Part shown: positions 799-50,150 of the stretch, piece by piece
How the letters are laid out: each line of letters opens with the position of its first letter
Position numbering within the stretch: position 1 is the first letter of the stretch
Program-made: the position numbers and the translations under genes
Notes under the pieces: generated by a model
What the model saw: the letters and a program-made list of their open reading frames with translations, nothing else
Databases searched by the model: none
What the model was told of the DNA's origin: nothing
Assembly: GCA_009360885.1 (NCBI GenBank)
Contig: SPEL01000005.1
Coordinates: 291,157 to 355,156, forward strand
Length of the DNA: 64,000 nucleotides
From: Sphingobium sp.
Lineage (GTDB): Bacteria; Pseudomonadota; Alphaproteobacteria; Sphingomonadales; Sphingomonadaceae
Direction: 5' to 3'

Positions 799-814
799 AC
801 TTGTCCGGCCAAGA
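799..814. promoter_or_regulatory. Putative GntR-family operator, copy 1
   Basis: ACTTGTCCGGCCAAGA matches the 16-bp palindrome ACTTGNCCGGNCAAGT found at five places in the first 11 kb. It is the only structured signal seen in the 341-bp gap between the divergent dehydrogenase and demethylase genes, so it could control both. That the GntR protein at 2459 binds it is inference. Confidence 0.6.
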
Positions 815-896
815 TAGAATTTATAAGCATGAGAATCGAAAGAAGCATGCGCGGGCTACACACCGCAGACTTCCCATATTAAGAAGAGGACAATCA

Positions 897-2234
897 ATGA
901 CAACCGCCGCCCAGCCAGTGCCCCTAAACCATGTACCTGAAGTGCCCTTTGATCCTCTGGCCGTCACCTACACCCGATTTGGCACCGGGTTTGAACCGCA
1001 TGAATATAGCGGATGGATCGACGAAAGCATGTCGTGGAAGAAAACATGCTTCATTGGGGACTGGTCTCCTCTGCTCAAATTGAAAATCAAAGGGCCGGAC
1101 GCGATCCGTTTCTTTTCCGACATCACCGTCAACGGATATAAAAAGTTCGACATCGGACAGGCAAAGCACATCATCATGTGCAATGATGACGGCAAGCTGA
1201 TGGGCGAAGGCGTGCTGATGCGTCAGGGCGAGGAAGAATTTTTATTCACCAGCGGCCCGGCCATTCCATGGATGCTGTATCAGGCACGCAAAGGGCAGCA
1301 CAATATCACCACAGACCTCATCAGCCAAAATCAGTTCATTTTTCAGGTACAAGGCCCCAATGCACTGTTCTTGCTGGAAGAAGCCATTGGTTCATCCATC
1401 AGAGACATAGGGTTTATGCGCTTTCGCAAAGCCGAAATTGACGGCATGTCCTTCGACATTTTGCGCCAGGGCATGGCCGGTGAATTGGGCTATGAATTGC
1501 ATGGCCGCGCCGATCAGGGCGTCGCCATTTACAATCGCCTGCTTGAAATCGGTAAAAAATGGGGCCTGCACCGATTGGGCGGACGCACCAAAATGGTCAA
1601 CCATGTCGAAGCTTGCTTCCCCACTCCTACCGTTGATTATATCCCCGCAATTTTCACCGATGAAGCCGCAGAATTTCGCGATATGCTGAAAGATGTTGCG
1701 CCATTTCTGCTCAACATATTACGTCCCGCAGGCAGCTATGAAGCCGCCAACATCAGCGATTATTACCGCTCCCCCGTTGAAATGGGCTGGGCAAAGAACA
1801 TCAAATTCACCCATGATTTCATTGGCCGTGCCGCACTGGAAAAAGAGGTAGCGGCACCGAAACGGGTTATGACAACCCTTGTCTGGAACGCCGAAGATGT
1901 GAATGACGTCCATGCATCGCTGTACCGGCCCGGCACCCCTTATACTTATATGGAAATGCCACGCAATCTGTTGGGCCTGATGTGGACCGATCAGGTTTTG
2001 CAGGATGGCAAATTGGTGGGAGCCTCAACATCCCGGTGCTATAGCTATCATTTCCGGGAAATGCTTTCCCTCTGCGTTATTGATCCTGCCCTTGCCGCCC
2101 CCGGCACACAAGTCGATATTGTATGGGGAGCATCAGGCGGGCCACAAAAAATCATCCGGGCAACGGTAGCCCCGGCACCCTATAAGCCCGACAATCGGAA
2201 AATCGACGTTCACGCCCTCCCATCCTATCTATAG
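897..2234 (+). CDS. GcvT-fold aminomethyltransferase-family protein, LigM/DesA-like O-demethylase
   Basis: A 445-aa protein of the aminomethyltransferase (GcvT) fold. Its length and C-terminal half resemble the tetrahydrofolate-dependent aromatic O-demethylases LigM and DesA: the segment DYYRSPVEMGW followed by KFTHDFIGRAALE, and a conserved SLCVIDPALAAPGTQV-type stretch near the end. Known relatives move a methyl group from an aryl methyl ether to tetrahydrofolate. ATG 897 is preferred because AGAAGAGGA lies just upstream (883-891); an in-frame extension to a TTG at 801 would start inside the operator at 799-814. The gene is monocistronic, with a hairpin after the stop. No folate-recycling genes (metF, folD, purU) are visible nearby. 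The aryl-ether substrate is inferred; a different methyl donor such as a dimethyl-amino compound is possible. Confidence 0.8.
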   Translation: MTTAAQPVPLNHVPEVPFDPLAVTYTRFGTGFEPHEYSGWIDESMSWKKTCFIGDWSPLLKLKIKGPDAIRFFSDITVNGYKKFDIGQAKHIIMCNDDGKLMGEGVLMRQGEEEFLFTSGPAIPWMLYQARKGQHNITTDLISQNQFIFQVQGPNALFLLEEAIGSSIRDIGFMRFRKAEIDGMSFDILRQGMAGELGYELHGRADQGVAIYNRLLEIGKKWGLHRLGGRTKMVNHVEACFPTPTVDYIPAIFTDEAAEFRDMLKDVAPFLLNILRPAGSYEAANISDYYRSPVEMGWAKNIKFTHDFIGRAALEKEVAAPKRVMTTLVWNAEDVNDVHASLYRPGTPYTYMEMPRNLLGLMWTDQVLQDGKLVGASTSRCYSYHFREMLSLCVIDPALAAPGTQVDIVWGASGGPQKIIRATVAPAPYKPDNRKIDVHALPSYL

Positions 2235-2275
2235 GGCCAGAACCCTAAAACCCTAGCATGACACCCTAGCATAAT

Positions 2276-2304
2276 AAGGCCCCGGAACAGCAAAACGGGG
2301 CCTT
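2276..2304. terminator. Hairpin after the LigM-like gene
   Basis: AAGGCCCCG (2276-2284) pairs perfectly with CGGGGCCTT (2296-2304) across an 11-nt loop. No T-tract follows, so it may act as a weak terminator or an mRNA-stabilising hairpin. Just upstream, ACCCTAGCAT occurs twice (2250-2259 and 2263-2272). Confidence 0.55.
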
Positions 2305-2326
2305 ACCTGCTCCGATCAATGAAAAT

Positions 2327-2342
2327 ATTTGACCGGACAAGT
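2327..2342. promoter_or_regulatory. Putative GntR-family operator, copy 2
   Basis: ATTTGACCGGACAAGT matches the palindrome ACTTGNCCGGNCAAGT at all but one defined base. It lies about 117 bp upstream of the GntR start and suggests autoregulation. Confidence 0.6.
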
Positions 2343-2420
2343 AAAATCACCCGAATAGAGGCAGCGGGTTCAGAAAATTCTTACCAAGAATAACTTTCGT
2401 TATAAGTGTTCGCTTTGTTG

Positions 2421-2436
2421 ATTTGCACTGACAAGT
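2421..2436. promoter_or_regulatory. Putative GntR-family operator, copy 3 (degenerate core)
   Basis: ATTTGCACTGACAAGT keeps the outer arms of the palindrome (TTG and CAAGT) but has ACTG in place of the CCGG core. It sits 22 bp before the gntR start, a position that would block transcription or initiation. Weaker match, probably a secondary autoregulatory site. Confidence 0.45.
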
Positions 2437-2458
2437 GAAAATAGGATAAGCTACCCTT

Positions 2459-3235
2459 ATGACGAGCAACTCAGCACAAACAGAACCCTCCCCCCCCGTT
2501 ACAGGAAACACACCTCCGCTCTATCAAATGGTGGTCAGCGAATTACGGACAGAAATTCTACAGGGATTATACCCAGTCGGAACATCCCTGCCGTCAGAAC
2601 TTTCTCTGGTCAGCAGATTTGGCGTGAGCCGCCACACCATCCGCGAAGCATTACGCAATTTGCGTGATCTGGGTTTGGTGGAATCCCATCAGGGTAAAGG
2701 CACACTTGTCCTTCAACCTGGCGGCCCGCAGGTCTATGTGCATCAGGTCAACTCCATCGCGGATCTTCATGATTATAATATGGAATCCCGCTATGACGAC
2801 AAAGCGGAAACCGTCAAACTCAGCCCGGATATGGCCGATCGACTAGGCGTTGAATCCGACGAAACATGGCTGAAAATAGGCGGAACCCGCTATAAGCTGA
2901 ATGAAAAAGACCCAATCTGCGCCGTTGAAATTTTCGTTCATGGCCGCTTCGCTGGCATTGGAAGGTTATTAGGCCGTCGCACCGGGCCAATTTATGGGCT
3001 GGTTGAGGATGTTTATGGCGAAGTCATCAGCGAAGTGGACCAGACTCTGCGCGCTGCGCCTGTGCAGGGCAAGCTGGCCGAAATATTGAAGCTAGCCGAA
3101 GGCGAGATGGCTGTCGAAATCAAACGCGTCTATCGCCTGCTGGACGGTACGCCCGCTGAAATTACGTTTAACTATTACAAAGCCGATAATTTCAGCTTTT
3201 CCATGAACCTTCGTCGCGTCCGAAATGGAGGATAA
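2459..3235 (+). CDS. GntR family transcriptional regulator with UTRA domain (HutC subfamily)
   Basis: A 258-aa cytoplasmic regulator. Residues about 20-90 form the GntR winged helix-turn-helix, with the signature PSELSLVSRFGVSRHTIREAL and a wing ending ESHQGKGTLV. Residues about 110-250 form a UTRA ligand-binding domain, including KIGGTRYKLNEKDPICAVEIF and the C-terminal strand AEITFNYYKADNFSFSM. HutC-type members sense small pathway metabolites and bind short palindromes. The gene lies between the LigM-like gene and the MBL-fold gene, in the same direction, with two copies of the repeated 16-bp palindrome in its own promoter and others before its neighbours. It is the best candidate regulator of the first cluster. 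The effector is unknown. Confidence 0.93.
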   Translation: MTSNSAQTEPSPPVTGNTPPLYQMVVSELRTEILQGLYPVGTSLPSELSLVSRFGVSRHTIREALRNLRDLGLVESHQGKGTLVLQPGGPQVYVHQVNSIADLHDYNMESRYDDKAETVKLSPDMADRLGVESDETWLKIGGTRYKLNEKDPICAVEIFVHGRFAGIGRLLGRRTGPIYGLVEDVYGEVISEVDQTLRAAPVQGKLAEILKLAEGEMAVEIKRVYRLLDGTPAEITFNYYKADNFSFSMNLRRVRNGG

Positions 3236-3283
3236 AATATTCCGCGTTTTTGACGCTTGAGTTTCATCCCATTCCCCTGTTAA

Positions 3284-3299
3284 AGATGACCGGACAAGT
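3284..3299. promoter_or_regulatory. Putative GntR-family operator, copy 4
   Basis: AGATGACCGGACAAGT matches the palindrome's core and right arm exactly. It lies 56 bp upstream of the MBL-fold gene, which heads the run MBL, NTF2-like, SDR and GMC. Confidence 0.58.
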
Positions 3300-3305
3300 T
3301 GTTCG

Positions 3306-3324
3306 CCATATGCGATTCATATGG
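3306..3324. promoter_or_regulatory. Perfect inverted repeat in the MBL-gene promoter
   Basis: CCATATG, a 5-nt spacer, then CATATGG: a perfect 7-bp inverted repeat seven bases after operator copy 4 and about 30 bp before the start codon. It does not match the GntR-type palindrome, so a second regulator or an mRNA 5' hairpin is possible. Confidence 0.35.
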
Positions 3325-3354
3325 AACTGAACACAACCGAGGCAGGAGGATGAT

Positions 3355-4251
3355 ATGGCATTGAAGGATGTCAAAAGCTGGCAGGTCGGGGATGTCCGGA
3401 TAACGCGCATCGTAGAAGTTGCATCCTATCCGGCCGATATAGGCATGTTGCTAAAGGATGCAGGGCCGGAAATTTTCGCCCCGCATAAAGACTGGTTATC
3501 CCCGCACTTCATCACTGATGACGGCCAGATGCTGATGCAATGGCAGGCCTTTGCCGTGCAAACGCCGACCCGGACAATGATGATTGACACCTGCATCGGC
3601 AATGACCGCAAGCTCTATTTCGATGTTTTCAACGATATGCAGACCTCCTTTCTGGAAGATCTGAAGGCAAGCGGCATAGACCCGGATGATGTCGATACCG
3701 TGTGCTGCACCCATCTGCATTATGACCATGTTGGTTGGAACACCAAGCTGGTTGATGGGAAATGGGTGCCCACATTCCCCAATGCCCGCTATTTATTTGA
3801 TGAAACCGAATATCAGGAGATACGGCATTTACAGGAAATTGGTGACTGGCACGGCGGCCATCTGCCCGACGCCATAGACCCCGTCATGGACGCCGGGTTG
3901 CACCAGTTCATTTCCGCACCGGGATATCAGGTTTGTGACGAGGTACGGATGGAACACACGCCCGGCCATACGGCAGGGCATTGCGCCATTTATATAGAAT
4001 CACAGGGTGAACGTGCCGTCATCACCGGTGATCTGCTGCATCATCCGGTGCAGTTCGCCATGCCCCAGCGCCACGGATCATTCGATCACGACCCCGTCAA
4101 AGGGGCCGAGACCCGGCAAGCCTTTGTTGCGCAAAATGCCGATGGCGCGATCATGGTAATCGGTTCCCATTTCAGCGACCCAACCGCCGGATGGATCATC
4201 CCCGATGGCGATGCATGGCGATTTGTAACAGAGCGGCCAAATGCGGCCTGA
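3355..4251 (+). CDS. MBL-fold metallo-hydrolase
   Basis: A 298-aa protein of the metallo-beta-lactamase fold, similar in layout to quorum-quenching lactonases and other hydrolases of the AHL-lactonase branch. The zinc motif HLHYDH is at residues 120-125, and the later ligands lie in HTPGHTAGH and in VITGDLLHHP. No signal peptide is seen, so it is cytoplasmic. The start is supported by AGGAGG seven bases upstream. It heads a same-strand run with an NTF2-like protein, an SDR and a GMC oxidoreductase, and follows a putative GntR operator. In a catabolic setting it more likely opens a lactone or hydrolyses an ester intermediate than degrades signals; this is inference. Confidence 0.88.
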   Translation: MALKDVKSWQVGDVRITRIVEVASYPADIGMLLKDAGPEIFAPHKDWLSPHFITDDGQMLMQWQAFAVQTPTRTMMIDTCIGNDRKLYFDVFNDMQTSFLEDLKASGIDPDDVDTVCCTHLHYDHVGWNTKLVDGKWVPTFPNARYLFDETEYQEIRHLQEIGDWHGGHLPDAIDPVMDAGLHQFISAPGYQVCDEVRMEHTPGHTAGHCAIYIESQGERAVITGDLLHHPVQFAMPQRHGSFDHDPVKGAETRQAFVAQNADGAIMVIGSHFSDPTAGWIIPDGDAWRFVTERPNAA

Positions 4252-4299
4252 AGACGTTTAAATATAGCACATCAACAACAATTTAATCAGGAGAAGACC

Positions 4300-4731
4300 A
4301 TGGCTGAAGCAGGCAATGCACAGGAACAACTCATCATTGATTTCTTTGAAACCCTCAGCTCCGGTGATCTCGATGCGCTGGCGGGGTATCTGCACGAAGA
4401 TATGAGCTGGACCACGATGATTACCGATGTGCCCGGCGCAGGGCGGCATGACGGGCGCGACCATGTGTTGAACACCTTCCTCGCCCCGGTACGCGGCACC
4501 TTTAAAGAGGGCGATCCGAAAGTCCATGTGGACAGCCTCGTCTCCAGTGGCGACAAGGTGATGGCCGAAACCCACGCAACGGGTGAGCGGGCCGATGGCC
4601 GCCCCTATAACAACCTCTATGCATGGGCGTTTGAACTGCGCGACGGCAAAATTCTGCATGTCCGTGAATATATGGACAGCCTCTATGTCGCGCGCTTCTT
4701 TAACATGGATTTGTCGGAGCCAGCCGCGTGA
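4300..4731 (+). CDS. NTF2-like / SnoaL-like domain protein
   Basis: A 143-aa single-domain protein of the NTF2-like alpha+beta barrel (SnoaL, ketosteroid isomerase and related folds). It has the usual opening (FFETLSSGDLDALAGYLHEDMSW), the middle GRDHVLNTFLAPV and the C-terminal strand pair ending VREYMDSLYVARFF. Family members bind small hydrophobic molecules and act as isomerases, dehydratases or cyclases, but the fold alone does not fix the reaction. AGGAG lies upstream. The stop overlaps the next gene's GTG start (GTGA at 4728-4731), so it is translationally coupled to the SDR and they probably act on successive intermediates. It is one of three such proteins in the window. Confidence 0.82.
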   Translation: MAEAGNAQEQLIIDFFETLSSGDLDALAGYLHEDMSWTTMITDVPGAGRHDGRDHVLNTFLAPVRGTFKEGDPKVHVDSLVSSGDKVMAETHATGERADGRPYNNLYAWAFELRDGKILHVREYMDSLYVARFFNMDLSEPAA

Positions 4732-5480
4732 GCGATTTCGCAGGAAAAGCCTATTTCATCGGCGGGGCAGCGAAGGGGCTTGGCCGGGCCATTGCGATTG
4801 ATCTGGCCCGGCGCGGTGCCAGCATCGGCATTGCTGATCTGGATGAAGCAGCACTGGCCGATGTCGCACAGGAAATCACCTCCGCAGGCGGAAATTGTGT
4901 CAGCACCCCGGCGGATCTGGCGGGACGATCGGCCGTATTGGATGCAGTCGGTGCCCTTGCCGCCCAATGCGGGGGCGTGGATGGGGTCATCAACAACGCA
5001 TCCTGCCTGATCTATGAACCAATAGAAGATGTGACCGAGGAAACGCTCGATAAAATGCTGGGCGCAGGCCTCAAATCTGCGGTGTGGGGCAGTCAGGCGC
5101 TGATACAATATCGCCGCCCTGATGCCCCGGCGAGCATTATCAATTTCAGCTCCCCCGTCGTTTACAAGGGCTATCCGCGCACATCCATATACAGCATGGT
5201 CAAAAGCGCCGTCGCCAGCCTGACAAGAACATTGGCGGCAGAATTGGGGCCGCAGAATATCAGGGTCAATTCCATCGCCCCCGGTTCCGTCCCCACGCCC
5301 GGTGCGCTGACCTATGTTGATGCACAGGAATATGAACGCCGCGCGGCCACAATCGCGCTGCGCCGCCTGGGGCGCGAGGATGACATCACGGAGGCTATCG
5401 CATTTTTACTGAGCGATGCAGCATCCTTCGTCAATGGCGCAACATTGGCGGTTGATGGCGGCATCATCGCATCGGCCTGA
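4728..5480 (+). CDS. SDR family NAD(P)-dependent oxidoreductase
   Basis: A 250-aa classical short-chain dehydrogenase. The cofactor loop is GGAAKGLGRA near residue 13 (the usual TGxxxGxG with Gly for Thr), followed by the NNAS motif near residue 90, and the active site has Ser in INFSSP with YSMVK. The C-terminus ends LAVDGG. The GTG start overlaps the stop of the NTF2-like gene by four bases, which argues for coupled expression. Such enzymes interconvert alcohols and ketones in catabolic routes; the substrate cannot be inferred. A 114-bp gap with no clear terminator separates it from the GMC gene, so all four genes may be one transcript. Confidence 0.9.
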   Translation: MSDFAGKAYFIGGAAKGLGRAIAIDLARRGASIGIADLDEAALADVAQEITSAGGNCVSTPADLAGRSAVLDAVGALAAQCGGVDGVINNASCLIYEPIEDVTEETLDKMLGAGLKSAVWGSQALIQYRRPDAPASIINFSSPVVYKGYPRTSIYSMVKSAVASLTRTLAAELGPQNIRVNSIAPGSVPTPGALTYVDAQEYERRAATIALRRLGREDDITEAIAFLLSDAASFVNGATLAVDGGIIASA

Positions 5481-5594
5481 TGTCCCTTCGCCCCGAAAAG
5501 GGCAGCGGGTGGCACCCAAGGCAAAACCGGTCAGTCACCTTCATAAATTTGTGATTTGCGGGCGGCGTATAAAACATAAAAAGGAACCCAAAAC

Positions 5595-7238
5595 ATGCGT
5601 TCCAGTTCAAATGAAAACCATGATTATATCATTTTAGGCGGGGGCACCGCCGGGTGCGTACTGGCCAATCGCCTGAGCGAAGACCCGCGCAACAGCGTTT
5701 GTCTGCTGGAAGCAGGGCCGCCAGATACCAACCCCCTCATCCGCATACCGGCGGGGGTCGCCTTCACCATCCTCAACCCGAAACTGGGGTGGGGCCTCAA
5801 AACCGTGCCCCAGCCCCATTGCAACAACCGGGAAATCATGATTCCGCGTGGGCGGGTATTGGGCGGGTCCAGTTCCATCAATGGGATGGTCTATTTTCGT
5901 GGGCACCCCGGTGATTTTGATGACTGGGCCGCAGCCGGTGCCACCGGATGGGGCTATGACGATGTGCTTCCTTATTTCTTGCGATCAGAAAATAACGAAT
6001 TTTACGAAGGCAGCCCGTATCATGCTATAGGCGGGCCGATGACCATCACCACATTGCGGGAATTTAATCCGTTGGTGATGAGCTTTCTGGATGCGGCAAA
6101 GGCGCTTGGCCTTAAAATGCAGGATGATTTTAACGGCCCTGACCCGGAAGGGTTCGGCACAAGGCAAGCCGCGATCCGAAATGGCAGACGGGAATCCGGC
6201 ACCACGGCCTTTCTGAATCCCGCCCGGTCCCGCAGCAATCTGCGCGTCATTACCGATGCGCCGGTCAAAAAAATACTGATAGAAAATGGCCGCGCCGTGG
6301 GCGTTATTTTCAGTCAGCATGGAATCGAAAAGACCATCCGCGCCAACCGTGAGGTCATCATCAGTGGCGGCGCTTATGGATCACCTACCATGTTACTGCA
6401 CAGCGGCATTGGCCCGGCGGATGAACTACGCGCCATCGGCATAGATGTGGTGCATGACCTGCCCGGTGTTGGCAAAGGGCTGCGCGACCATCCTTCTGCT
6501 GCGTTACAAATGCGAACGACCGACACCACCTCTTATGGCATGTCCCTGCGCAAAGCTGTTCCCAACGCCATTGATGGCCTGCGCTACCTGCTGTTCCGCA
6601 GTGGCCCAGTGGCGGGCAATATGTTCGAAGGCCATGGTTTTTGGAAAAGTTCACCGGAACTCAGCCGCCCTGATATGCAGATCATCATGATGCCCGCCCA
6701 TCGCAATGCCGAGCCAAAGGCACTACCACGCGGGCATGGATATGGCATTATATCGGCGCTGGTGAAGCCAAAGAGCCTCGGTTCCATCACCATCGGGTCA
6801 AAAGACCCTGCAGCAACCCCATTGATTGACCTCAACTTTCTGGGGGAAGAAGAGGACATCGTCAAAATTCGCACCGGGCTGAAACTGGGCCGGAAAATGC
6901 TCAGTAACTCGGCCTTTTCGCGCTACCATGGCCATGAGATATTGCCCGGCAATGATGTGCAATCGGATGATGAATGGGATGATTATATCCGTCGGACCTG
7001 CACTATGGTGCATCACCCCACCAGTTCCTGTCGTATGGGCACAGACCCGATGGCAGTGGTAGACCCCGAATTAAAGGTTAGCGGCATAGAGGGGTTGCGC
7101 GTGGTAGATGCATCCATATTCCCGACATTAATCGCCGGAAATACCAATGCCGGGGTCGTGATGGTGGCAGAGAAAGCGTCCGACATCATTCTGGGTCGGC
7201 CCGCGCCGCTACCCATCCGCCTACCCCATGCGCAATAA
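5595..7238 (+). CDS. GMC family oxidoreductase (choline-dehydrogenase-like)
   Basis: A 547-aa FAD-dependent alcohol dehydrogenase/oxidase of the glucose-methanol-choline family. The FAD-binding motif GGGTAGCVLANRLS is at the N-terminus, with the GMC signatures GRVLGGSSSINGMVYFRG (about residues 84-101) and SGGAYGSPTMLLHSGIG (about 256-272). The C-terminal active site has VHHPTSSCRMG with the catalytic His pair region and NTNAGVVMVAEKASD. AAGGAA lies before ATG 5595. No signal peptide is seen. Relatives oxidise aliphatic or aryl alcohols to aldehydes. It is last in the MBL-NTF2-SDR-GMC run and is followed by a strong bidirectional terminator. Confidence 0.92.
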   Translation: MRSSSNENHDYIILGGGTAGCVLANRLSEDPRNSVCLLEAGPPDTNPLIRIPAGVAFTILNPKLGWGLKTVPQPHCNNREIMIPRGRVLGGSSSINGMVYFRGHPGDFDDWAAAGATGWGYDDVLPYFLRSENNEFYEGSPYHAIGGPMTITTLREFNPLVMSFLDAAKALGLKMQDDFNGPDPEGFGTRQAAIRNGRRESGTTAFLNPARSRSNLRVITDAPVKKILIENGRAVGVIFSQHGIEKTIRANREVIISGGAYGSPTMLLHSGIGPADELRAIGIDVVHDLPGVGKGLRDHPSAALQMRTTDTTSYGMSLRKAVPNAIDGLRYLLFRSGPVAGNMFEGHGFWKSSPELSRPDMQIIMMPAHRNAEPKALPRGHGYGIISALVKPKSLGSITIGSKDPAATPLIDLNFLGEEEDIVKIRTGLKLGRKMLSNSAFSRYHGHEILPGNDVQSDDEWDDYIRRTCTMVHHPTSSCRMGTDPMAVVDPELKVSGIEGLRVVDASIFPTLIAGNTNAGVVMVAEKASDIILGRPAPLPIRLPHAQ

Positions 7239-7282
7239 AATTCCTTCGTGTCGCACACGCGCCCGGTAACAGCCTGGGCCTC

Positions 7283-7318
7283 AACCGCCCGACGCCTCTG
7301 CGCGCCGGGCGGTTTTCC
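7283..7318. terminator. Bidirectional intrinsic terminator
   Basis: AACCGCCCG (7283-7291) pairs with CGGGCGGTT (7306-7314), a 9-bp GC-rich stem followed by TTCCTT. It lies between the convergent GMC and NTF2-like genes and probably ends both transcripts. Confidence 0.75.
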
Positions 7319-7750
7319 TTACCCGAATATCAACGTCATATTGCCTTTGCGTGATTTCAGACGCCAGCCATCAGCGGTTCTGACGAAATTATCCCGATAT
7401 TCACCCACGAATATTTTCGGTTCCGCAGCCACCGGGCGGGCCGCATCCACATCGGTCGTCGATAGAAATGTGACATAACTGATACCGGTGGCTTCATCCG
7501 GCCCCAGAACGTCAATCACGATATTGCTCATGATATGGCGGGACAGCCGGGGTGGCCGCGCCTGAAGCATAGCCAGTATTTCCGCCCGGCCAATAGTGGG
7601 GTTTTCCGGGTCCAGCGGGCGAGCAAAGGAGCCATCCTCCACGAATAAAGCCGCCAGCTTTTCCAGCTCTCCCAGATCATTGAACACCGCAAATTGCTTT
7701 ACGATTTTCTCGCAAGCCAATTCGGCAGATTGCCTTTCTTCATCCTTCAT
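7319..7750 (-). CDS. NTF2-like / SnoaL-like domain protein
   Basis: A 143-aa NTF2-like protein: helix AELACEKIVKQFAVFNDLGELEKLAALF, then FVEDGSFARP and the closing strands FVGEYRDNFVRTADGWRLKSRKG. This layout is typical of SnoaL-like or ring-hydroxylating-dioxygenase beta-subunit-like folds; no oxygenase alpha subunit is adjacent. The open frame extends to 7846 inside the upstream racemase gene, but AAGGAG nine bases before the ATG at 7750 marks the likely start; a GTG at 7753 is an alternative. It is the third gene of a leftward operon (CoA ligase, racemase, this gene), 16 bp after the racemase. It may process the CoA thioester or its product. Role unproven. Confidence 0.8.
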   Translation of the reverse strand: MKDEERQSAELACEKIVKQFAVFNDLGELEKLAALFVEDGSFARPLDPENPTIGRAEILAMLQARPPRLSRHIMSNIVIDVLGPDEATGISYVTFLSTTDVDAARPVAAEPKIFVGEYRDNFVRTADGWRLKSRKGNMTLIFG

Positions 7751-7766
7751 CACATGCATCTCCTTA

Positions 7767-8867
7767 TCATTGCAATTCCACGCCCCATTGTCGGGCAGCT
7801 TCCACGCCGCCATCGCCCGCGCCCACTGGCGGCCCCTGAATGGCACCCGGCGTCACAGACAGACGCGGCGCGGGGGCAGGGTGCTGCACATCATCCATTG
7901 CAACAAAGGCCTCACGCGCCTTGTTATGGGGATGATGGCGGGCCTCTGACATATTCAGCACCGGGGCAAAGCAGGCGTCGCCGCCCTCAAATAGCACCGT
8001 CCATTCATCCCGCGTTTTTGTCGCGATGATGCCAGCCAGCTTCTGTTTGAGGTACGGCCAGTTTTCCTGCGTCATCTGGCCATCAAAATCCGCATCCTGC
8101 ATATCCGCGATGCGCCGCAATTCCGCATAAAATTGCGGTTCAATCGCCCCCAGAGCAATCCAGTTACCATCTGAACATTGATAGCAATTATAGAAATGCG
8201 CCCCCCCATCGATGATGTTGACGCCGCGCTCATCACGCCAGCTACCGCGCGCCTGATGGCCATAGAGCATCCCCATCAGGCCAATGGTGCCGTCACTCAT
8301 CGCGCAATCAATAACCTGCCCCTGCCCGGTGTGTTCGGCATGGCGCAATGCCGCCAGAACACCAAAGGCCAGATAGAGCGCCCCGCCGCCAAAATCCCCA
8401 ACAAGATTAAGCGGCGGCACCGGGCGTTCCGTCGTGCCGATAGCGTGCAACGCCCCGGTAATCGCAATGTAATTTATGTCATGCCCCGCCATATGGGCAT
8501 AAGGGCCATATTGGCCCCAGCCCGTCATCCGCCCGTAAACGAGGCGGGGATTACGGGATAAGGCTATGTCAGGGGCCAACCCCAATCGCTCCATCACGCC
8601 GGGACGATATCCTTCGATGAGGACATCTGCCTTCTCTATCAGACGCAGAATATTTTCCTGCCCCTCCGGGCTTTTCATATCAACGACGAGAGAACGGCGG
8701 CCCCGCGTTTCGACCATATATTTATCGTAGACGGCACCGGGCCTGTCGATACGCAGAACATCCGCCCCCATATCAGACAGCATCATCCCGCAAACCGGCA
8801 CCGGGCCGATCCCTGCAAATTCCAGCACCTTCACACCGGCGAGCGCGCCGCCTGATTCCGCAACCAT
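7767..8867 (-). CDS. CaiB/BaiF class III CoA-transferase family, alpha-methylacyl-CoA racemase-like
   Basis: A 366-aa member of the CaiB/BaiF family that most resembles alpha-methylacyl-CoA racemase (AMACR). It opens with the AMACR-type LAGVKVLEFAGIGPVPVCGMM and ADVLRIDRPG. His129 in AGHDINYIA and Asp158 in VGDFGGGALYL correspond to the acid-base pair of mycobacterial MCR (H126/D156). AMACR epimerises the 2-methyl centre of branched acyl-CoAs so that beta-oxidation can proceed. It overlaps the upstream acyl-CoA ligase by one base (TGATG), so the ligase probably supplies its substrate. This points to a 2-methyl-branched carboxylic acid such as a terpenoid, steroid side chain or aryl-propionate-type acid; CoA transfer instead of racemisation is the alternative. 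Confidence 0.87.
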   Translation of the reverse strand: MVAESGGALAGVKVLEFAGIGPVPVCGMMLSDMGADVLRIDRPGAVYDKYMVETRGRRSLVVDMKSPEGQENILRLIEKADVLIEGYRPGVMERLGLAPDIALSRNPRLVYGRMTGWGQYGPYAHMAGHDINYIAITGALHAIGTTERPVPPLNLVGDFGGGALYLAFGVLAALRHAEHTGQGQVIDCAMSDGTIGLMGMLYGHQARGSWRDERGVNIIDGGAHFYNCYQCSDGNWIALGAIEPQFYAELRRIADMQDADFDGQMTQENWPYLKQKLAGIIATKTRDEWTVLFEGGDACFAPVLNMSEARHHPHNKAREAFVAMDDVQHPAPAPRLSVTPGAIQGPPVGAGDGGVEAARQWGVELQ

Positions 8868-10456
8868 CAGCCCATCTCCAGCTTCGTGCGGCGCATCAAA
8901 ATGCCTGCCTTTTCACGGTCCCAGCAATCATCGCGGATGCCTTCGTCCCGCAACCGATGCTTTTCAATTTTCTGGGTGGGCGTGCGGGGAAATTCATCAA
9001 CCACCCGGATGAAACGCGGAATCATATGATGTGCAATTTCGCCTTTCAGAAAATCCATCAACGCTAGCGGGTCAAAATTGTCAGGCTGGCGCACCCGTAG
9101 CACCGCAAGAATTTCCTGCTCCGTTCCATCTGGCGCCGGGACACCAACAGCCGCCGCCTCCATAATATCATCATAGCCAAGCAGCGCGCTTTCCACCTCA
9201 AAGGAGGATATATTCTCCCCCCGCCGCCGGATGGAATCCCGCGCACGATCAATAAAATGATAATGGCCCAGATCATCACGGCGGAACATATCGCCACTAT
9301 GGAACCAGCCATTGCGCCATGCCGATGCGGTCGCCTTATCATCATTGAGATAGCCATGGCTGATCGTCCATGGCCGTTCCATTCTAAGGACCAGTTCCCC
9401 GGTTTCTCCCGCAACGACTTCTTCATCACAGGCATCAACCAAACGGAGTTCCACACCCGGCGATGGCACACCGCATGTCCCGGAAACCTTCGGATTAGGC
9501 CCGCAAAAAAGGGGAACGGCCAGCTCGCTCATATTATATTCGGTGTACACATCGACACCAAAACGATCGGCAAAGCGCATCGCAGCCGGGCCATAAGGCG
9601 CGATTATCACGGTCCTGAGGCTGTGATTTTTATCCTCCGGCGACGGCTCCGTCGCATTAAGGAAATCTACCATCGAACCAAGCAGGCCGGTTGTGGTCAC
9701 CGCATATTCGTTCACAATTGACCAGAAACGACTGGTGCTGAAACCATTCTGCACGACGACTGATCCGCCATGAAATAACGCCCAGAACAGGCCATAAACC
9801 CCACCGACATGGTAAAATGGCATTGCCGTCAGGTTCCGATCCTGCGGCCCGATATTGCGAAACCCCAATGCCGCAGTCCGGCCATGACGATAGCTGGAGA
9901 GAACGCCCTTTGCCGGCCCGGTCGTACCAGAGGTATAAATAACCATCTGAGTGTCATGGTCCGCCACCTGTTTCTCAGGCGGCTGCACAATATCAGCATC
10001 ACCGCGCAGCATTGTATCTTCGATGATTTCCAGACCGGCCACAGATGCCCTGTCCGTGCCCAGAACAATTGCTTTCTCCAGCTTTCCACAATCAATATCG
10101 GTCAGCCTGTCCATCAACCCGCCATGCAATATCATATGCCGGGCGTTGGAATGGCGAATGATATGCGCCAGACTAGCCCCGCGATAATTCGGATTTACCG
10201 GAACATATATTGCCCCCAGATAAGCGAGCGCGAAGATAGTCGCCACAGCCGTGGGTGAATTGGGCTGCCAGCTCAGGACATAATCCCCTTGCCTCACGCC
10301 GATTTGCTGCAATCCCTGTGCCATTGCCCGGGCGATGTGGCGTACATCCCTCCATGTCCATCGCGGCCCGTCCACGAACAGAATCGCTTCTTCATCGGGA
10401 CATTCCGCTGCCCTCTGTTCCAATAAATGGACAAAATAGGGGTAGTTTTTATTCAT
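8867..10456 (-). CDS. AMP-dependent acyl-CoA synthetase/ligase
   Basis: A 529-aa ANL-superfamily enzyme that activates a carboxylic acid to its CoA thioester through an acyl-adenylate. The P-loop-like signature YTSGTTGPAKGV lies near residue 172, followed by the YTEYNMSE region (A5), WFHSGDMFRRDDLGHYHFIDRARDSIRRRGENIS (A7-A8, given here as positions about 390-425), and the terminal catalytic lysine region PRTPTQKIEKHRLR. It leads the leftward operon with the AMACR-like gene and the NTF2-like gene. Its promoter region (10457-10729) is shared with the divergent PcaC-like gene and contains the best copy of the GntR-type operator. The substrate is unknown. Confidence 0.92.
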   Translation of the reverse strand: MNKNYPYFVHLLEQRAAECPDEEAILFVDGPRWTWRDVRHIARAMAQGLQQIGVRQGDYVLSWQPNSPTAVATIFALAYLGAIYVPVNPNYRGASLAHIIRHSNARHMILHGGLMDRLTDIDCGKLEKAIVLGTDRASVAGLEIIEDTMLRGDADIVQPPEKQVADHDTQMVIYTSGTTGPAKGVLSSYRHGRTAALGFRNIGPQDRNLTAMPFYHVGGVYGLFWALFHGGSVVVQNGFSTSRFWSIVNEYAVTTTGLLGSMVDFLNATEPSPEDKNHSLRTVIIAPYGPAAMRFADRFGVDVYTEYNMSELAVPLFCGPNPKVSGTCGVPSPGVELRLVDACDEEVVAGETGELVLRMERPWTISHGYLNDDKATASAWRNGWFHSGDMFRRDDLGHYHFIDRARDSIRRRGENISSFEVESALLGYDDIMEAAAVGVPAPDGTEQEILAVLRVRQPDNFDPLALMDFLKGEIAHHMIPRFIRVVDEFPRTPTQKIEKHRLRDEGIRDDCWDREKAGILMRRTKLEMG

Positions 10457-10644
10457 TCACCCTCACCCTTCATGGCCCGGAATATCCGCCGCGCACATAA
10501 GAAGGCAGCACATATTCTGGCACCATCCTCACCCAGAGACACACAGACTTATCCGTACATTTATTGTTTTGAAAATAAGCATCGAATTGAATTGATGACA
10601 AGATTTTTATCAGAAATGAACTGTTTTTCGGTAATCTGTTGCAA

Positions 10645-10660
10645 ACTTGGCCGGACAAGT
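10645..10660. promoter_or_regulatory. Putative GntR-family operator, copy 5 (best match)
   Basis: ACTTGGCCGGACAAGT fits the palindrome ACTTGNCCGGNCAAGT at every defined base. It lies between the divergent ligase operon (start 10456) and the PcaC-like gene (start 10730), so one site could control both and tie them to the GntR gene 7 kb away. Confidence 0.65.
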
Positions 10661-10729: not shown

Positions 10730-11113
10730 ATGTCTAGCGAGGCATATGAAAGAGGTCTGGCACTTCGTAAGGAAGTTCTGGGCGCAGACTATGTAGAGCG
10801 TTCATTCGCTAATGCTGATGAATTCAGCCGTCCTATGCAGGAATTATCGACCGAATATTGCTGGGGCACTATATGGTCCCGCCCCGGGCTGGCGCGTCGC
10901 GAAAGAAGCTTGCTGAATATCGGCATGATAAGCGCGCTCAACCGTCCGCATGAATTGAAACTGCATATCAAAGCAGCCCTGAATAACGGCCTAACCCGCG
11001 AAGAAATCCGCGAGGCTTTGCTGCAGGTAGCGGTATATTGCGGCGTGCCGGCTGGCCTTGATTCAACCCGCATCGCGCGCGAAGCCTTTGCCGAGGTGGA
11101 TGCCGCAGCCTGA
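10730..11113 (+). CDS. Carboxymuconolactone decarboxylase family protein (PcaC-like)
   Basis: A 127-aa all-helical protein whose whole length follows gamma-carboxymuconolactone decarboxylase (PcaC): YERGLALRKEVLG at the start, FANADEFSRP, WGTIWSRPGLARRERSLLNI in the middle, and the final helices with REALLQVAVYCGVPAG. It lacks the CxxC of the AhpD peroxidase branch, which supports a lyase-type role. PcaC itself acts in the beta-ketoadipate pathway, but no other pca genes are visible here, so a related lactone or beta-keto acid substrate is likely. AGGAAA precedes ATG 10730. It is followed after 22 bp by the serine-hydrolase gene, with which it probably forms an operon. Confidence 0.88.
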   Translation: MSSEAYERGLALRKEVLGADYVERSFANADEFSRPMQELSTEYCWGTIWSRPGLARRERSLLNIGMISALNRPHELKLHIKAALNNGLTREEIREALLQVAVYCGVPAGLDSTRIAREAFAEVDAAA

Positions 11114-11135: not shown

Positions 11136-12311
11136 GTGAACATGCATAACCCGACGATTTCTGCTGCCCCCGGCCTGATACAGGACCGCCTCAACCATCT
11201 GGAAAATGTGGTGAAATCAGATGTTGAAAATGGGGCCTATTGGGGTGCCAGACTGATTGTTGCACGCCACGGTGAAATTGGCCTCGACGCCACAATCGGG
11301 TGGGCGGATAAAGAAAGAACGCGCCCGCTTGCGCATGACAGCGTGTTCACAATTTTCTCTATGACAAAGGCAATGACCAATATTTTGTGCCTGCGCGCAA
11401 TTGAAAATGGTCAGTTTTCTTTGGCGACAAAGGTTGCGGACGTCATCCCCGAATTTAAAGGCGGCCTGCGCGAACATATCACTGTTTTTCACCTGCTAAC
11501 CCATATGTCTGGCCTGCCGATGCTGTTTCTTTTGAAACCCGATATGCCCATCGACATTCTGGACGACACCATCCGGGTCGCTTGTGAAATTGTGCAGGCG
11601 ATCGAACCGGCAGGTGAAAAATGTAATTATTCGCCTATGTTGAACCAGCTTTTTCTGGGTGAAATATTGCGCCGGACAGACCCCAAAGGACGCGCCTATC
11701 GCGATATTGTGCGCGAAGATTTGCACGAACCGCTGGGTATGACGAGCAGCGCCATCGGCCTGCGCAAAGATTTAAAAGAACGGCATATTTTCCCCGATTT
11801 TCGTGGCAATGCACCGATTAATCACATCGGCAGCAGCGGCCTCGGTGAAAATGGTGCCTACCGCGAAGAATTTGCCGAAATGCCATGGGTTGGTGCAGTA
11901 TCTACGGCCCCTGATATTTTCCGTATGGCAGAAATGCTGCGTCAGGGCGGCACCCTTGGTGATGCACGCATCCTGTCACCCGCAATGGTGAAGAAAGCAC
12001 GCCAGTGCTATACCGGGGACAAGCCCAACGAGCTATATAAAACATTGGCCCACAAGGATCAGTGGGAAGTATCACCCGGCTATATCGGTCTGGGATTTTC
12101 GCTACGTGGCACCAAAATGACCAACCATATGTATGGTACACAGACGTCGCCCGAAACCTTTGGCAATTACGGCGCTGGCAGTACTATTTTCTGGGTTGAT
12201 CCGGAACTGGACATGACATTTGTTTGTCTGACAACCGGCCTCCTCGCATCTAACCCCAATATTGTGCGCTTCCATCGCCTTGCAGATATTGCCGTTTCCG
12301 CAGCGCGATAA
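11136..12311 (+). CDS. Serine hydrolase of the beta-lactamase (class C / family VIII esterase) fold
   Basis: About 391 aa. The nucleophile motif SMTK (Ser75, Lys78) and the motif-II Tyr in CNYSPMLNQLF fit the class C beta-lactamase / family VIII esterase fold; the third motif position is GNYGAGST rather than KTG, which is common in esterases. No signal peptide is seen, arguing for a cytoplasmic esterase rather than a resistance enzyme. The open frame extends upstream to 11058 inside the PcaC-like gene, but GAGAGGA (11124-11130) points to GTG 11136 or ATG 11142. It lies 22 bp after the PcaC-like gene and ends in a strong hairpin. It may hydrolyse an ester or lactone on the same pathway. Confidence 0.87.
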   Translation: MNMHNPTISAAPGLIQDRLNHLENVVKSDVENGAYWGARLIVARHGEIGLDATIGWADKERTRPLAHDSVFTIFSMTKAMTNILCLRAIENGQFSLATKVADVIPEFKGGLREHITVFHLLTHMSGLPMLFLLKPDMPIDILDDTIRVACEIVQAIEPAGEKCNYSPMLNQLFLGEILRRTDPKGRAYRDIVREDLHEPLGMTSSAIGLRKDLKERHIFPDFRGNAPINHIGSSGLGENGAYREEFAEMPWVGAVSTAPDIFRMAEMLRQGGTLGDARILSPAMVKKARQCYTGDKPNELYKTLAHKDQWEVSPGYIGLGFSLRGTKMTNHMYGTQTSPETFGNYGAGSTIFWVDPELDMTFVCLTTGLLASNPNIVRFHRLADIAVSAAR

Positions 12312-13084: not shown

Positions 13085-13885
13085 ATGTATGATGCAACGC
13101 GTCTTACAGACAAGGTAGCAATAATTACCGGCGGAGCAGGAGGGATCGGTGCCGCAACGGCACGCCTCTTCAGCCAGCGTGGCGCACGGGTGGTTATTGC
13201 CGATATTGCCGGTGATCGGGCGCGGGCGGTAGCGGACGAGTTGCCAGATGCTTTGCCGGTCGAAGTAGACCTCGCCAGCGAAGATTCCATTATCGCCATG
13301 ATATCCGCCACAATTGCCCATTACGGCAAGCTGGACATCCTCGATAATAATGCTGCCCTGCTCGACCCGGATATGGGTCCGAAGGACATTGATATCGAGC
13401 ATATGGAAAGCAGCACCTGGGATCGCACCTATGCGGTCAATGTTCGCGGCACAATGATCGCCTGCCGCGAGGCTCTGCCACATTTGCGGTCAACGGGCGG
13501 CTGCATCATCAACACGGTCAGCAATCTTGCTCTACAGGGCCATGTTATTCAGGCCGCATATTCATCATCCAAAGCGGCGATTATTCAGATGACCAGATCC
13601 ATCGCGGCCAGCCACGGACGATCCGGTGTGCGTTGCAATGCTGTTGCACCGGGCATGACGATGACGCCCGCATTAAAGGCCGCTTTTCCAGAGCATCTGC
13701 GCCTGTTGGTGGAGGATGAAACGCTGCGAAACCAACTCGGAGCCCCCGAAGACATAGCAGAGGCTGTGGCGTTTCTGGCGTCAGATGCAGCACGCAACAT
13801 TACCGGGCAATTACTGGTGTGTGACGGAGGAGCCGCGAGCCATGTGCCGGGTTACACCGCATTTCGCACAGCAATGGGGTTTTAA
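13085..13885 (+). CDS. SDR family NAD(P)-dependent oxidoreductase
   Basis: A 266-aa classical SDR with TGGAGGIG at residues 14-21, the motif DNNAA replacing the usual NNAG near residue 92, active-site Ser in NTVSNLALQG, and YSSSK as the YxxxK motif. The end has LLVCDGGAASHVPGYTA. ATG 13085 is preferred over upstream in-frame starts because AAGGAGAGG lies nine bases before it. It is divergent from the HxlR gene and three bases before the phytoene-desaturase-like gene, so it leads that operon. It is likely to oxidise an alcohol or cis-diol in the second catabolic block. Confidence 0.9.
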   Translation: MYDATRLTDKVAIITGGAGGIGAATARLFSQRGARVVIADIAGDRARAVADELPDALPVEVDLASEDSIIAMISATIAHYGKLDILDNNAALLDPDMGPKDIDIEHMESSTWDRTYAVNVRGTMIACREALPHLRSTGGCIINTVSNLALQGHVIQAAYSSSKAAIIQMTRSIAASHGRSGVRCNAVAPGMTMTPALKAAFPEHLRLLVEDETLRNQLGAPEDIAEAVAFLASDAARNITGQLLVCDGGAASHVPGYTAFRTAMGF

Positions 13886-13888
13886 ATA

Positions 13889-15475
13889 ATGAGCTATGAT
13901 ATTGTTGTGATGGGTGCAGGCCATAACGGACTGACAGCGGCCGCCTATATGGCGAAGGCAGGCAAAAAGGTTCTCGTTCTGGAGAGCAAGCCTTTTTATG
14001 GGGGCGGGGTATCCACCCGTGAACTGATTCGCCCGGGATATTGGCATGATGAGCATTCCGCAGTGCATATCATGATTCAGGGTAATCCGATGCTGCGGGA
14101 TGATGAACTGGGCCTGCTGTCGAAATTTGGCCTGGAATATCACTATCCCGATCTGGTGCATGTTAGCATATGGGAAGACGGCACGGTTATCCGTAGCTAT
14201 AAGGATCTGGATCGCACTTGTAACGAACTGGCGCAGGTTACGTCGGAAAAAGACGCCGAAGCATATCGCAGATTTGTGAAAATGAGCATGGCCGCATTAC
14301 CCATGCTGGTTTCCGGCCTGTACACCCCGCCTTTTCCACTCGGCGCTTTCGTCGCAATGATGGACCAGTCCGATGAAGGGCGCTTCTTGCTGGATATGAT
14401 GCAGCGTTCAGCAATGGATGTCGTGTCGCAATATTTCGACAGCGAATTGCTGCGCGTACACATTGTGCGTCTGGTCACAGAAAATTTGCAAATGCCTGAT
14501 GAACTGGGGACAGGCATGGGGGCGTTTGTCATGCCCGGCATCATCCACACTTATGGCTGTTCCCGTCCGATCGGGGGGTCTGGCCAGCTAAGCCATGCTC
14601 TGGTCCGGGCGATTGAGTATATGGGCGGCGAGGTACGTGTGAATGCCCCCGTCCGGCGCATATTGGTCTCCGGCGGCAAGGCGATTGGCGCAGAACTGGA
14701 AAATGGTGAGCAGATACTCGCCAAAGATGGCGTCATCGGTACAATTCATCCGCACCGCCTGCGCCAATTTGTAAGCGAGGCACCCGAACCGGTATTACAG
14801 CGTGCGGAACGTGTCACCCAGTCAACATTCTCTATCAATCTGACACATGCCATATTGAAGGAACGTCTTGAGCTGAAAGTTGGCAATGACTGCAACGCAG
14901 TGATGACGGAGTTCATGGATTTCTATGACATGCGAGACATGTGTCTGGAGTTCGATAAGCTGCGCCGGGGCGAAGTATCCCCTCGCCTGATTGCTGGCGG
15001 AGACACCACCGTTTTCGATACAAGCAGAGCGCCGGAAGGGGGAGGCGTCCTATATGGCGTTAATTTTGCGCCCTATCATCTTCATGATGGCGGGGCCGCC
15101 GCATGGGATGAGCAAAAGGTGGAGCATAGTGATCGCTCACTAGCCCAGCTTCGGAAATTCTTCAAAAATCTGGATGATGACAATATCATGGGGCGCAAGG
15201 TCTGCTCTCCACTCGATCATGAACGAGGCAGCCCCAATTCCATGGCGGAGGGAGACGCCCATGGCTGTGCGCCTTTCTTTTATCAATCAATGGGGCACCG
15301 CCCTACACCCGATTTGGGCAGCTTCCGTGTACCATCTGTAGGTGGGCTCTATCTGACGGGACCATTCATGCACCCCGGCGGCGGCGTATTTGGTGCAGGC
15401 AGGGCAACAGCCATCCAAATGATGGACGACATGGGCATCAATTTTGACCAAGTTTGTGGGGAGGCCATTCGATGA
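13889..15475 (+). CDS. FAD-dependent oxidoreductase, phytoene-desaturase-like
   Basis: A 528-aa flavoprotein of the phytoene desaturase / PYROXD2-like branch. It has a strong N-terminal dinucleotide motif DIVVMGAGHNGLTAAAYMAKAGKKVLVLE (residues 4-32; Gly-rich core GAGHNG), the substrate-side GGGVSTRELIRPG, and the C-terminal FAD signature GGLYLTGPFMHPGGGVFGAGRATAIQMM. Carotenoid genes are absent, so a carotenoid role is unlikely. In sphingomonad catabolic clusters such proteins are thought to desaturate or rearomatise alicyclic intermediates; that is inference. It follows the SDR by three bases and its stop overlaps the next small gene (ATGA), so the three are one operon. Confidence 0.85.
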   Translation: MSYDIVVMGAGHNGLTAAAYMAKAGKKVLVLESKPFYGGGVSTRELIRPGYWHDEHSAVHIMIQGNPMLRDDELGLLSKFGLEYHYPDLVHVSIWEDGTVIRSYKDLDRTCNELAQVTSEKDAEAYRRFVKMSMAALPMLVSGLYTPPFPLGAFVAMMDQSDEGRFLLDMMQRSAMDVVSQYFDSELLRVHIVRLVTENLQMPDELGTGMGAFVMPGIIHTYGCSRPIGGSGQLSHALVRAIEYMGGEVRVNAPVRRILVSGGKAIGAELENGEQILAKDGVIGTIHPHRLRQFVSEAPEPVLQRAERVTQSTFSINLTHAILKERLELKVGNDCNAVMTEFMDFYDMRDMCLEFDKLRRGEVSPRLIAGGDTTVFDTSRAPEGGGVLYGVNFAPYHLHDGGAAAWDEQKVEHSDRSLAQLRKFFKNLDDDNIMGRKVCSPLDHERGSPNSMAEGDAHGCAPFFYQSMGHRPTPDLGSFRVPSVGGLYLTGPFMHPGGGVFGAGRATAIQMMDDMGINFDQVCGEAIR

Positions 15476-49800: not shown

Positions 49801-49968
49801 GTTGTTCCGCGTTTCTTTAGCACGCAGAAGCTTGAAAGGCCGGACCCCTGCGGAGACCTGAGCCTGAGCAGTGGAAAGTCCCATTGCTGAGGCTGAAAAG
49901 GCAGCGGCGCCTGCACCAAGAATTTGAAGGAATTGCCGCCGACCAAGGTTGAGTTTCGAACCTTGCAT
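46876..49968 (-). CDS. fdoG: Formate dehydrogenase-N/O catalytic (alpha) subunit, Cys variant
   Basis: About 1030 aa, a full-length molybdopterin enzyme of the FdnG/FdoG class that oxidises formate in the periplasm. A twin-arginine signal is visible ([20 protein letters not shown]). The [4Fe-4S] site is CTYCSVGC plus Cys in SLCPKG. The catalytic position reads [17 protein letters not shown], so Cys203 stands where E. coli has selenocysteine; no in-frame TGA or SECIS is needed. The end has [18 protein letters not shown] 49968 is chosen; a GTG at 49983 is an alternative. It leads the operon alpha-beta-gamma-fdhE. Gap 49969-50450 holds only an IS relic (50151-50330) and promoter DNA. Confidence 0.95.
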
Positions 49969-50150
49969 GCTAACTATATTCACCCGTTCTTATATGATGT
50001 TCCTGCCATGTCACACCCCGGAACAGAACGCAATAGTAGGCTTTTTTCCTCAAATTCCGCATATTTTTAATGATACGCATTATTATAAAAATAGCACTCA
50101 GATCGTTGGTTTATAAACTTATTTCCACCTGCCGGAGAACATCCATAGCC

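Follow-up and report, generated by a model that had tools for sequence, protein, structure and literature searches.

Does the 16-bp palindrome that recurs between the genes at the left end of a 64-kb stretch of Sphingobium DNA mark the operators of a single regulator, and do the genes behind it form a regulon? The stretch (hereafter the window; 64,000 nucleotides) is C7:291157-355156, i.e., part of contig C7, of a 2.93 Mb genome that is 79.6% complete, and its right edge coincides with the contig end. A sequence-only reading of the window had located five palindromes, at positions 799, 2327, 2421, 3284 and 10645, and had proposed that they define a probable GntR regulon of six transcription units acting on one substrate. 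From the distribution of the sites and from their recurrence, together with the regulator and 19 genes, on the plasmid pEP1, we propose with a probability of roughly 85% that the palindrome is the operator of the GntR/HutC-type regulator encoded at 2459-3235 (+ strand, 258 amino acids), and that this protein represses its own gene together with a catabolic regulon of about ten units until a ligand releases it.

The five palindromes occur where they had been placed, and all five are intergenic, in promoter gaps. The consensus is ACTTGTCCGGACAAGT, and mismatches are counted against ACTTGNCCGGNCAAGT. The predicted operator at 10645-10660 (ACTTGGCCGGACAAGT), between the ligase gene (- strand) and the PcaC-like gene (+), has no mismatch. 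One mismatch is present in the predicted primary operator at 799-814 (ACTTGTCCGGCCAAGA), 244 bp before the dehydrogenase start, and in the predicted distal gntR operator at 2327-2342 (ATTTGACCGGACAAGT), 117 bp before gntR. The predicted operator at 3284-3299 (AGATGACCGGACAAGT), before the MBL-NTF2-SDR-GMC run, has two, and the weak predicted operator at 2421-2436 (ATTTGCACTGACAAGT), 23 bp before the gntR ATG, has three. The promoter position of site 799 stands, but the dehydrogenase/LigM-like pair before which it had been placed is divergent (dehydrogenase minus, LigM-like plus). The set of five is real and incomplete. Two weak auxiliary sites lie 98 bp from a stronger one, namely 701-716 (ACATGTACGGATATGT), 146 bp before the dehydrogenase start, and 10547-10562 (ACTTATCCGTACATTT), on the ligase side of site 10645. 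In addition, the same contig has four good sites beyond the left edge of the window, at C7:279699, 279784, 285158 and 288824 (-11457, -11372, -5998 and -2332 in window numbering, thus up to 11.5 kb out), the first two of which were found by matrix scan and by the looser pattern described below. The genes behind all these sites form a 25-kb block of 19 genes (C7:278760-303467, ending at 12311 in the window). The six units of the sequence-only reading become about ten predicted transcription units, in a block running left to C7:278760. Rightward, the earlier statement that the remaining 53 kb hold no further clear copy agrees with the scans: in window 10661-64000 the matrix built from pEP1 sites only found nothing better than a place of 13.1 inside a gene (17679), and the matrix of seven sites of this genome gave at best 14.3 inside an open reading frame (ORF; 34267).

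A dispersed repeat, or mere chance, is next to negligible as an explanation of the palindromes. The window alone would leave it some room: eight matches at up to three mismatches against 2.33 expected (reached by none of 100 shuffles) is a small excess, three of the eight being additional to the five sites (4778 inside the SDR gene, 13797 intergenic, 20993 inside a VOC ORF), and no excess exists genome-wide at three mismatches. At up to two mismatches, however, the whole genome holds nine places, six of which are in the block (C7:285158, 288824, 291955, 293483, 294440 and 301801), whereas the other three (C2:341583, C4:556516 and C7:312149, the latter being window 20993) are inside ORFs. Moreover, all four places that match the strict pattern WNWTGWCCGGWCAWNW are within the block and the reversed control pattern has none, which contradicts a chance origin. 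With the looser pattern WNWTGNMCKKNCAWNW, 34 distinct places were obtained, against 8 and 6 on the two strands for its reversed control. Nine are the known sites, another lies in a TonB gene belonging to the block, and 24 are off the block. The 11 of these 24 that were inspected, among them the seven highest-scoring, are all inside ORFs.

Over 83 kb of this genome, scanning with the pEP1-only matrix found nine hits at or above 16, against 0.075 by shuffle. The eight good block sites scored 16.9-22.8 and site 2421 scored 11.4; off the block, the values were 18.3 for C2:341583, 15.6 for C2:200958 and 15.3 for C4:556516, all other scored places remaining at or below 13.0. This return scan is not independent, the pEP1 sites having been collected with the matrix of this genome. 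Equally good sites in unrelated promoters, which the sequence-only reading had named as evidence against a regulon, were not found, all 14 inspected off-block near-matches being within ORFs. These ORFs were called mechanically, and the one at C4:246855 is only 103 amino acids long. Because of such positions we dropped as extra regulon members C2:341583 (inside a 935-aa ORF), C2:200958 (inside a racemase gene), C4:556516 (inside the EF-Tu gene), window 20993 (inside the VOC ORF) and ten looser-pattern places, C4:246855 among them. The match at C2:341583 (L053 9584-9599, ACATGATCGGACAAGT), whose ORF has no Pfam match, is probably due to chance; it is still a candidate off-block site.

Further evidence comes from the comparison with pEP1, a conjugative plasmid of Sphingobium sp. 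EP60837. A tblastn search of plasmids returned one close GntR orthologue, 80.6% identical, on pEP1, the matches in all other records being less than 60% identical. At E ≤ 1e-35, the regulator was found in two of 94 genomes of the genus, the present one included; the other (G636) is probably EP60837, because its GntR match has coordinates identical to those of the pEP1 record. The gene comparison started at C7:278760 and covered the block and eight genes rightward. For every one of the 19 block genes, pEP1 gave a reciprocal best hit (63.5-92% identity), the set being spread there in a different order over 128.8-187.8 kb (about 59 kb). Six of the eight genes to the right had no hit, and the other two gave a 29% reciprocal match (SDR2) and a 46% non-reciprocal one, to a paralogue (FAD oxidoreductase). 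The outward scan of 86 kb of pEP1 with the matrix of nine sites of this genome, which is independent, found 13 places at or above 16 against 0.35 per shuffle (first-order Markov samples, 40 per sequence; the largest shuffled maximum for pEP1 was 18.1). Twelve of the 13 are intergenic; the other falls at the end of MmgE and precedes the orthologue of the leftmost MBL gene by 114 bp.

The comparison of promoters in an orthologous cluster, suggested as a check by the sequence-only reading, shows that most of the orthologous pEP1 promoters keep the palindrome. The sites are kept before gntR (two), between gntR and MBL, between the ligase side and PcaC, at the dehydrogenase-divergent promoter and before both TonB receptor genes, while the pEP1 succinate-semialdehyde dehydrogenase gene sits behind a P450 gene whose promoter holds the sites. 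In the alignments, the operators stand out as islands of identity, and their gaps to the start codons are nearly preserved. The counterpart of site 799 (131052, TCTTGGCCGGACAAGT) is also 244 bp before the dehydrogenase gene, and that of site 701 (131152) is 144 bp before it and 100 bp from the primary site. The counterpart of site 2327 (166055) lies 120 bp before gntR. Site 3284 is part of an island, ATGACCGGACAAGTTG, that is identical on pEP1 (167015), and site 10645 is kept (175495) together with its flank TTGCAAA. Even site 2421 gains support from the comparison, because its counterpart (166152) is likewise 23 bp away from the gntR ATG. Between the two clusters, the regulator is orthologous, and the 19 genes as well as the operators are shared; the cluster of pEP1 differs in being rearranged, plasmid-borne and supplemented with folD, folB, purU, maleylacetate reductase, dioxygenase and P450 genes. 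Together, these data indicate that one predicted regulator-site-gene unit is common, in rearranged form, to this Sphingobium genome and to a conjugative plasmid.

Is GntR the protein that would read the palindrome? It comprises an N-terminal winged helix-turn-helix of the GntR type (PF00392, 73 bits, cut-off 27) and a C-terminal UTRA domain (PF07702, 52.7 bits, cut-off 23.8), with no FCD domain among its Pfam matches, which places it outside the Atu1419/VanR group. Its nearest solved relatives are YvoA/NagR and DasR. The 25 named NCBIfam GntR equivalogs (PhnF, TreR, HutC and others) listed among the 26 matched families are all below cut-off, the best score being 87.9 bits for PhnF (cut-off 156.8); HutC scores 67.5 (cut-off 220). 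According to PMC4494728, the operators of the HutC subfamily mostly have GT and AC 4 nt apart, a spacing that the consensus shows. In every primary site, one half (GT or AC) or both are exact, and an inexact second half is frequent; the natural sites of NagR are likewise imperfect palindromes (PMC4333415). The same paper has Arg48 of NagR reading the guanine G-4 and Arg38 reading G-5. The counterpart of Arg48 in the present protein is Arg58, and all primary sites have G-4; the counterpart of Arg38 is Leu48, and the G-5 position is a T, the core being TTGTCCGGACAA instead of NagR's TGGTCTAGACCA. Thus, the protein resembles NagR and DasR in its GntR winged helix-turn-helix and UTRA domains, its GT-N4-AC palindrome and its conserved G-4-reading arginine, without having both operator-reading arginines as a NagR/DasR orthologue does, and its predicted targets are a catabolic cluster in place of N-acetylglucosamine genes. 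Position 48 is an arginine in no homologue row compared and does not predict carriage of the motif; similarly, the residues at NagR positions 38 and 49 fail to separate motif-bearing from motif-less homologues.

Look-alike palindromes can be used by different dimeric regulators, and IclR, LacI and LysR genes lie near the pEP1 cluster, any of whose products might bind the palindrome and have gntR merely as one target. Such an arrangement is very improbable: GntR is the sole regulator among the 19 genes common to both blocks, the palindrome agrees with HutC spacing and with a conserved contact between Arg58 and guanine, and it recurs before the gntR genes of some homologues. Among 43 homologue loci gathered by family and order searches, 42 had enough upstream DNA, and 13 of these carry a site scoring at least 10 within 250 bp before their own gntR, against 16 of 541 control tiles from the same loci (homologue promoters included). 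In the genome G094, whose GntR is 46% identical, the site ACTTGTCCGGTCAAGT is before the gene, and a second strict match about 18 kb off is the only other one in 4.5 Mb. A scan of genome contigs for the GntR protein gave five distant loci, whose best segments are 41-44% identical over part of the protein and which were left aside for orthology.

Three plasmid loci were noticed with the looser matrix, in scans that had no shuffle control. The Mycobacterium branderi plasmid has one place of at least 9 bits just before its gntR. On pUSP2 of Aminobacter sp. MSH1, eight places of at least 9 bits occur in 20.7 kb, and TGTCCGGACA-type places (L076 273, 505, 9804, 14514, 17231 and 20163) surround a 39%-identical GntR, in a neighbourhood with CoA-transferase and acyl-CoA dehydrogenase genes; this is perhaps a related regulon. 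On the Variovorax paradoxus VAI-C plasmid, TTGTACGTACAA-like palindromes (L074 4178, 4279, 7672 and 7808), two of which are 101 bp apart, lie near a 40%-identical GntR, and the locus may represent a sister regulon whose operator centre has changed.

Several observations weigh against the proposal that the palindrome is the operator of GntR throughout one regulon. First, site 2421 does not stand on its own sequence, because the genome shows no enrichment at three mismatches (92 matches against 185 for the reversed control, per strand). Second, C2:341583, with 18.3, outscores two block sites (17.7 and 16.9) under the pEP1 matrix, and the inspection of looser-pattern places took in 11 of the 24 off the block. 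Third, a scan for consensus promoters gave matches not above chance (10 against 10.3), and the SMP-30 gene in this genome has no good site directly upstream. Fourth, the promoters of 29 of the 42 homologues score below 10, some close ones included (L060, 37%; L020 and L079, 36%), because of which many GntR relatives probably use other operators. Fifth, the sole strict match of the genome G101 is on another contig than its gntR homologue, that of the Mycobacterium branderi plasmid is about 77 kb from it, and the Aminobacter plasmid has no place matching the strict pattern. Sixth, three of the seven primary sites in this genome and four of the nine on pEP1 have no partner at 85-111 bp that is individually unusual (about p ≤ 0.03), which bears on the pairing described below.

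Belonging to the HutC subfamily and the position of the operators argue for repression and ligand release. In the mechanism that we favour, a GntR dimer would bind the palindrome in the gntR promoter as well as in those of about ten predicted units, and would thereby repress the units of the 25-kb block; a pathway metabolite bound in the UTRA domain would release it, and uptake (two TonB receptors and the MFS transporter) would therefore be induced together with the enzymes. Alternatively, GntR might bind and activate, or combine activation with repression, with activation exerted from the upstream member of each pair. The sites far upstream of a start codon (2327 at 117 bp; those of the dehydrogenase at 146 and 244 bp) would suit such a role, while five sites 23-70 bp before a start codon (2421, 3284, 10645, C7:285158 and C7:288824) do not, and DasR reportedly is a repressor. 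NagR, the other HutC relative, is described as one too (PMC4333415), and we regard activation, alone or combined with repression, as quite improbable.

The weaker sites raise the question of pairing. When the best second place within 20-150 bp of each primary site was searched with the matrix from the other genome, the partner was at 85-111 bp for 13 of the 16 primaries (seven in this genome and nine on pEP1; P about 4e-7) and, after orthologous promoters were collapsed, at 80-115 bp for seven of ten (P 0.006), both ranges having been chosen after the data were seen. Individually unusual partners (about p ≤ 0.03) number five in each genome; in this genome, one of these five partners (at -143 bp) falls within a gene, and its primary site has a weaker partner at +92. 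Several promoters thus appear to combine a strong primary operator with a weaker second one about 85-111 bp off, which would be consistent with cooperative binding. This arrangement has a precedent, as PMC4494728 describes divergent promoters with HutC double sites whose spacing is nearly constant and which are interpreted as cooperative. Helical phasing of the pairs, tried by hand, was inconsistent (spacings of 78-111 bp) and was abandoned.

The proposed regulon, compact and conserved, would be a known kind of system, and its existence is well supported by the comparison of the two clusters. Similarly to the role proposed for our GntR, Atu1419 of Agrobacterium fabrum is, according to PMC7797058, a GntR-superfamily repressor of an aromatic pathway with a folate-dependent O-demethylase, with palindromes in several promoters, two of them within one intergenic region. 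It differs in belonging to the FCD/VanR group, in being a tetramer and in its operator ATGTATACAT, with two sites 190 bp apart; its proposed effector is methylene-tetrahydrofolate, whereas the effector domain here is UTRA. DesR of Sphingobium sp. SYK-6 regulates vanillate/syringate catabolism, again with tetrahydrofolate-dependent demethylases; it is of the MarR type and reportedly serves a different pathway (PMC6888825). In the open-licence library searched we found no paper on this GntR cluster, and, judged by title, no bacterial-regulator paper for the strings TTGTCCGGACAA, TTGTCCGGACA and TGTCCGGACA.

The left part of the block starts at C7:278760 with an MBL hydrolase (-), a succinate-semialdehyde dehydrogenase (+; TIGR01780 over cut-off), an MFS transporter (-; its closest match, under the cut-off, is the aromatic-acid symport subfamily) and a TonB receptor (-), followed by an SMP-30 protein (-), a second TonB receptor (-), a CrtO-like FAD oxidoreductase (-; far below the CrtO cut-off) and the 3-hydroxyisobutyrate-dehydrogenase-like gene (-; whole gene C7:290809-291711), whose 5' part is at 1-555 of the window (NAD_binding_2 and NAD_binding_11; reciprocal best hit on pEP1, 77% identical). 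Then come, with their identities to pEP1, a LigM/DesA-like tetrahydrofolate-dependent demethylase or demethylenase (897-2234, +, 445 amino acids, GCV_T, 80%) and, beyond gntR, an MBL-fold, lactonase-like hydrolase (3355-4251, +, 86%), an NTF2/SnoaL-like protein (4300-4731, +, 83%), an SDR oxidoreductase (4728-5480, +, 74%), a GMC oxidoreductase (5595-7238, +, 84%), a SnoaL_4/NTF2-like protein (7319-7753, -, 82%), a CaiB-like CoA-transferase of family III (7767-8867, -, 77%), an AMP-binding acyl-CoA ligase (8867-10456, -, 67%), a PcaC-like carboxymuconolactone decarboxylase (10730-11113, +, CMD, 91%; TIGR02425 149.8 bits, cut-off 155.7) and a serine hydrolase of the beta-lactamase/esterase fold (11142-12311, +, 88%), the last block gene common to pEP1. 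The LigM/DesA-like protein has LigM as its closest solved chain and scores under the curated cut-offs of both families (DesA 274.7 of 800; LigM 236.7 of 580).

We infer a single pathway and a single substrate for these genes, all 19 of which are together in two genomes, most of them under one operator. A single regulon whose genes serve two or more substrates or pathways is doubtful without being far-fetched: the block has two TonB receptors, two MBL lactonase-like and two NTF2-like proteins, and its pEP1 counterpart extends over about 59 kb with additional P450, maleylacetate reductase and dioxygenase genes.

On pEP1, units beginning next to operators additionally include purU, maleylacetate reductase together with the dioxygenase, folD, folB, a second LigM-like gene and the P450 gene; the block of our genome lacks these additions. 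PurU and FolD of pEP1 are over cut-off, and the maleylacetate reductase label is the record's annotation. The only NCBIfam match of the dioxygenase at E ≤ 1e-40 is chlorocatechol 1,2-dioxygenase (152 of 359 bits), and we take it as putatively hydroxyquinol-type; it had no match in our 79.6% complete genome, in a search without positive control. A Pfam search found no MTHFR on pEP1, while G636 has one outside pEP1. In SYK-6, an MTHFR homologue oxidises the methyl-tetrahydrofolate from O-demethylation (PMC12585457), and BrdA, of the SesA/BrdA family of methylenedioxy demethylenases, hands a methylene group to tetrahydrofolate (PMC5547118). Because pEP1 has no MTHFR, SYK-6 O-demethylation uses one and BrdA passes on a methylene group, a methylenedioxy substrate, for example one yielding hydroxyquinol, is a possible conjecture. 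The most specific scheme, rather improbable as a whole, would have the GntR dimer loop primary and auxiliary operators about 95-105 bp apart to switch a mobile pathway for methylenedioxy- or methoxy-plant aromatics, the LigM-like protein being a demethylenase. In its pEP1 version, one-carbon units would leave by way of tetrahydrofolate, FolD and PurU, and the ring would be converted through hydroxyquinol to 3-oxoadipate by the dioxygenase and maleylacetate reductase.

Other genes for one-carbon metabolism were noticed in both genomes. About 48 kb left of the block (C7:228691-230339), a divergent MTHFR-like gene (40.8 bits) directly precedes a purU homologue that is 65% identical to pEP1 PurU. 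Neither the strict nor the looser pattern matches in that region, and the two genes resemble a pair for one-carbon disposal that does not belong to the regulon. A second purU homologue is on C1. Just beyond the pEP1 block (L077 3477-9555), a formate dehydrogenase operon lies beside a LysR gene, which would be fitting for one-carbon disposal. Right of the block, a weak palindrome and possible site (13797-13812, ACATTACCGGGCAATT; 11.5 with the pEP1 matrix, for which about 1.7 chance hits of at least 12 are expected in 83 kb) is 77 bp before the FAD oxidoreductase gene mentioned above (13889-15475), whose 46% match is to the pEP1 orthologue of the regulon's FAD oxidoreductase. Left of the block (L052 2617-5575) is a pair of PmbA/TldD-type metallopeptidase genes. 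Within the window, two ORFs of more than 1000 amino acids (29585-32647 and 46876-49983) are each accompanied by shorter ORFs in the same direction; by size and order, they may be RND-type efflux operons.

Taken as a predicted regulon, these unrelated-looking catabolic genes become a single unit that can be put to the test, for which a regulator is named and the operators are defined. All 19 may then be handled as one candidate pathway. The comparison also shows a catabolic unit in common with a conjugative plasmid, and the operator may provide a handle on part of the HutC-type regulators in this family.

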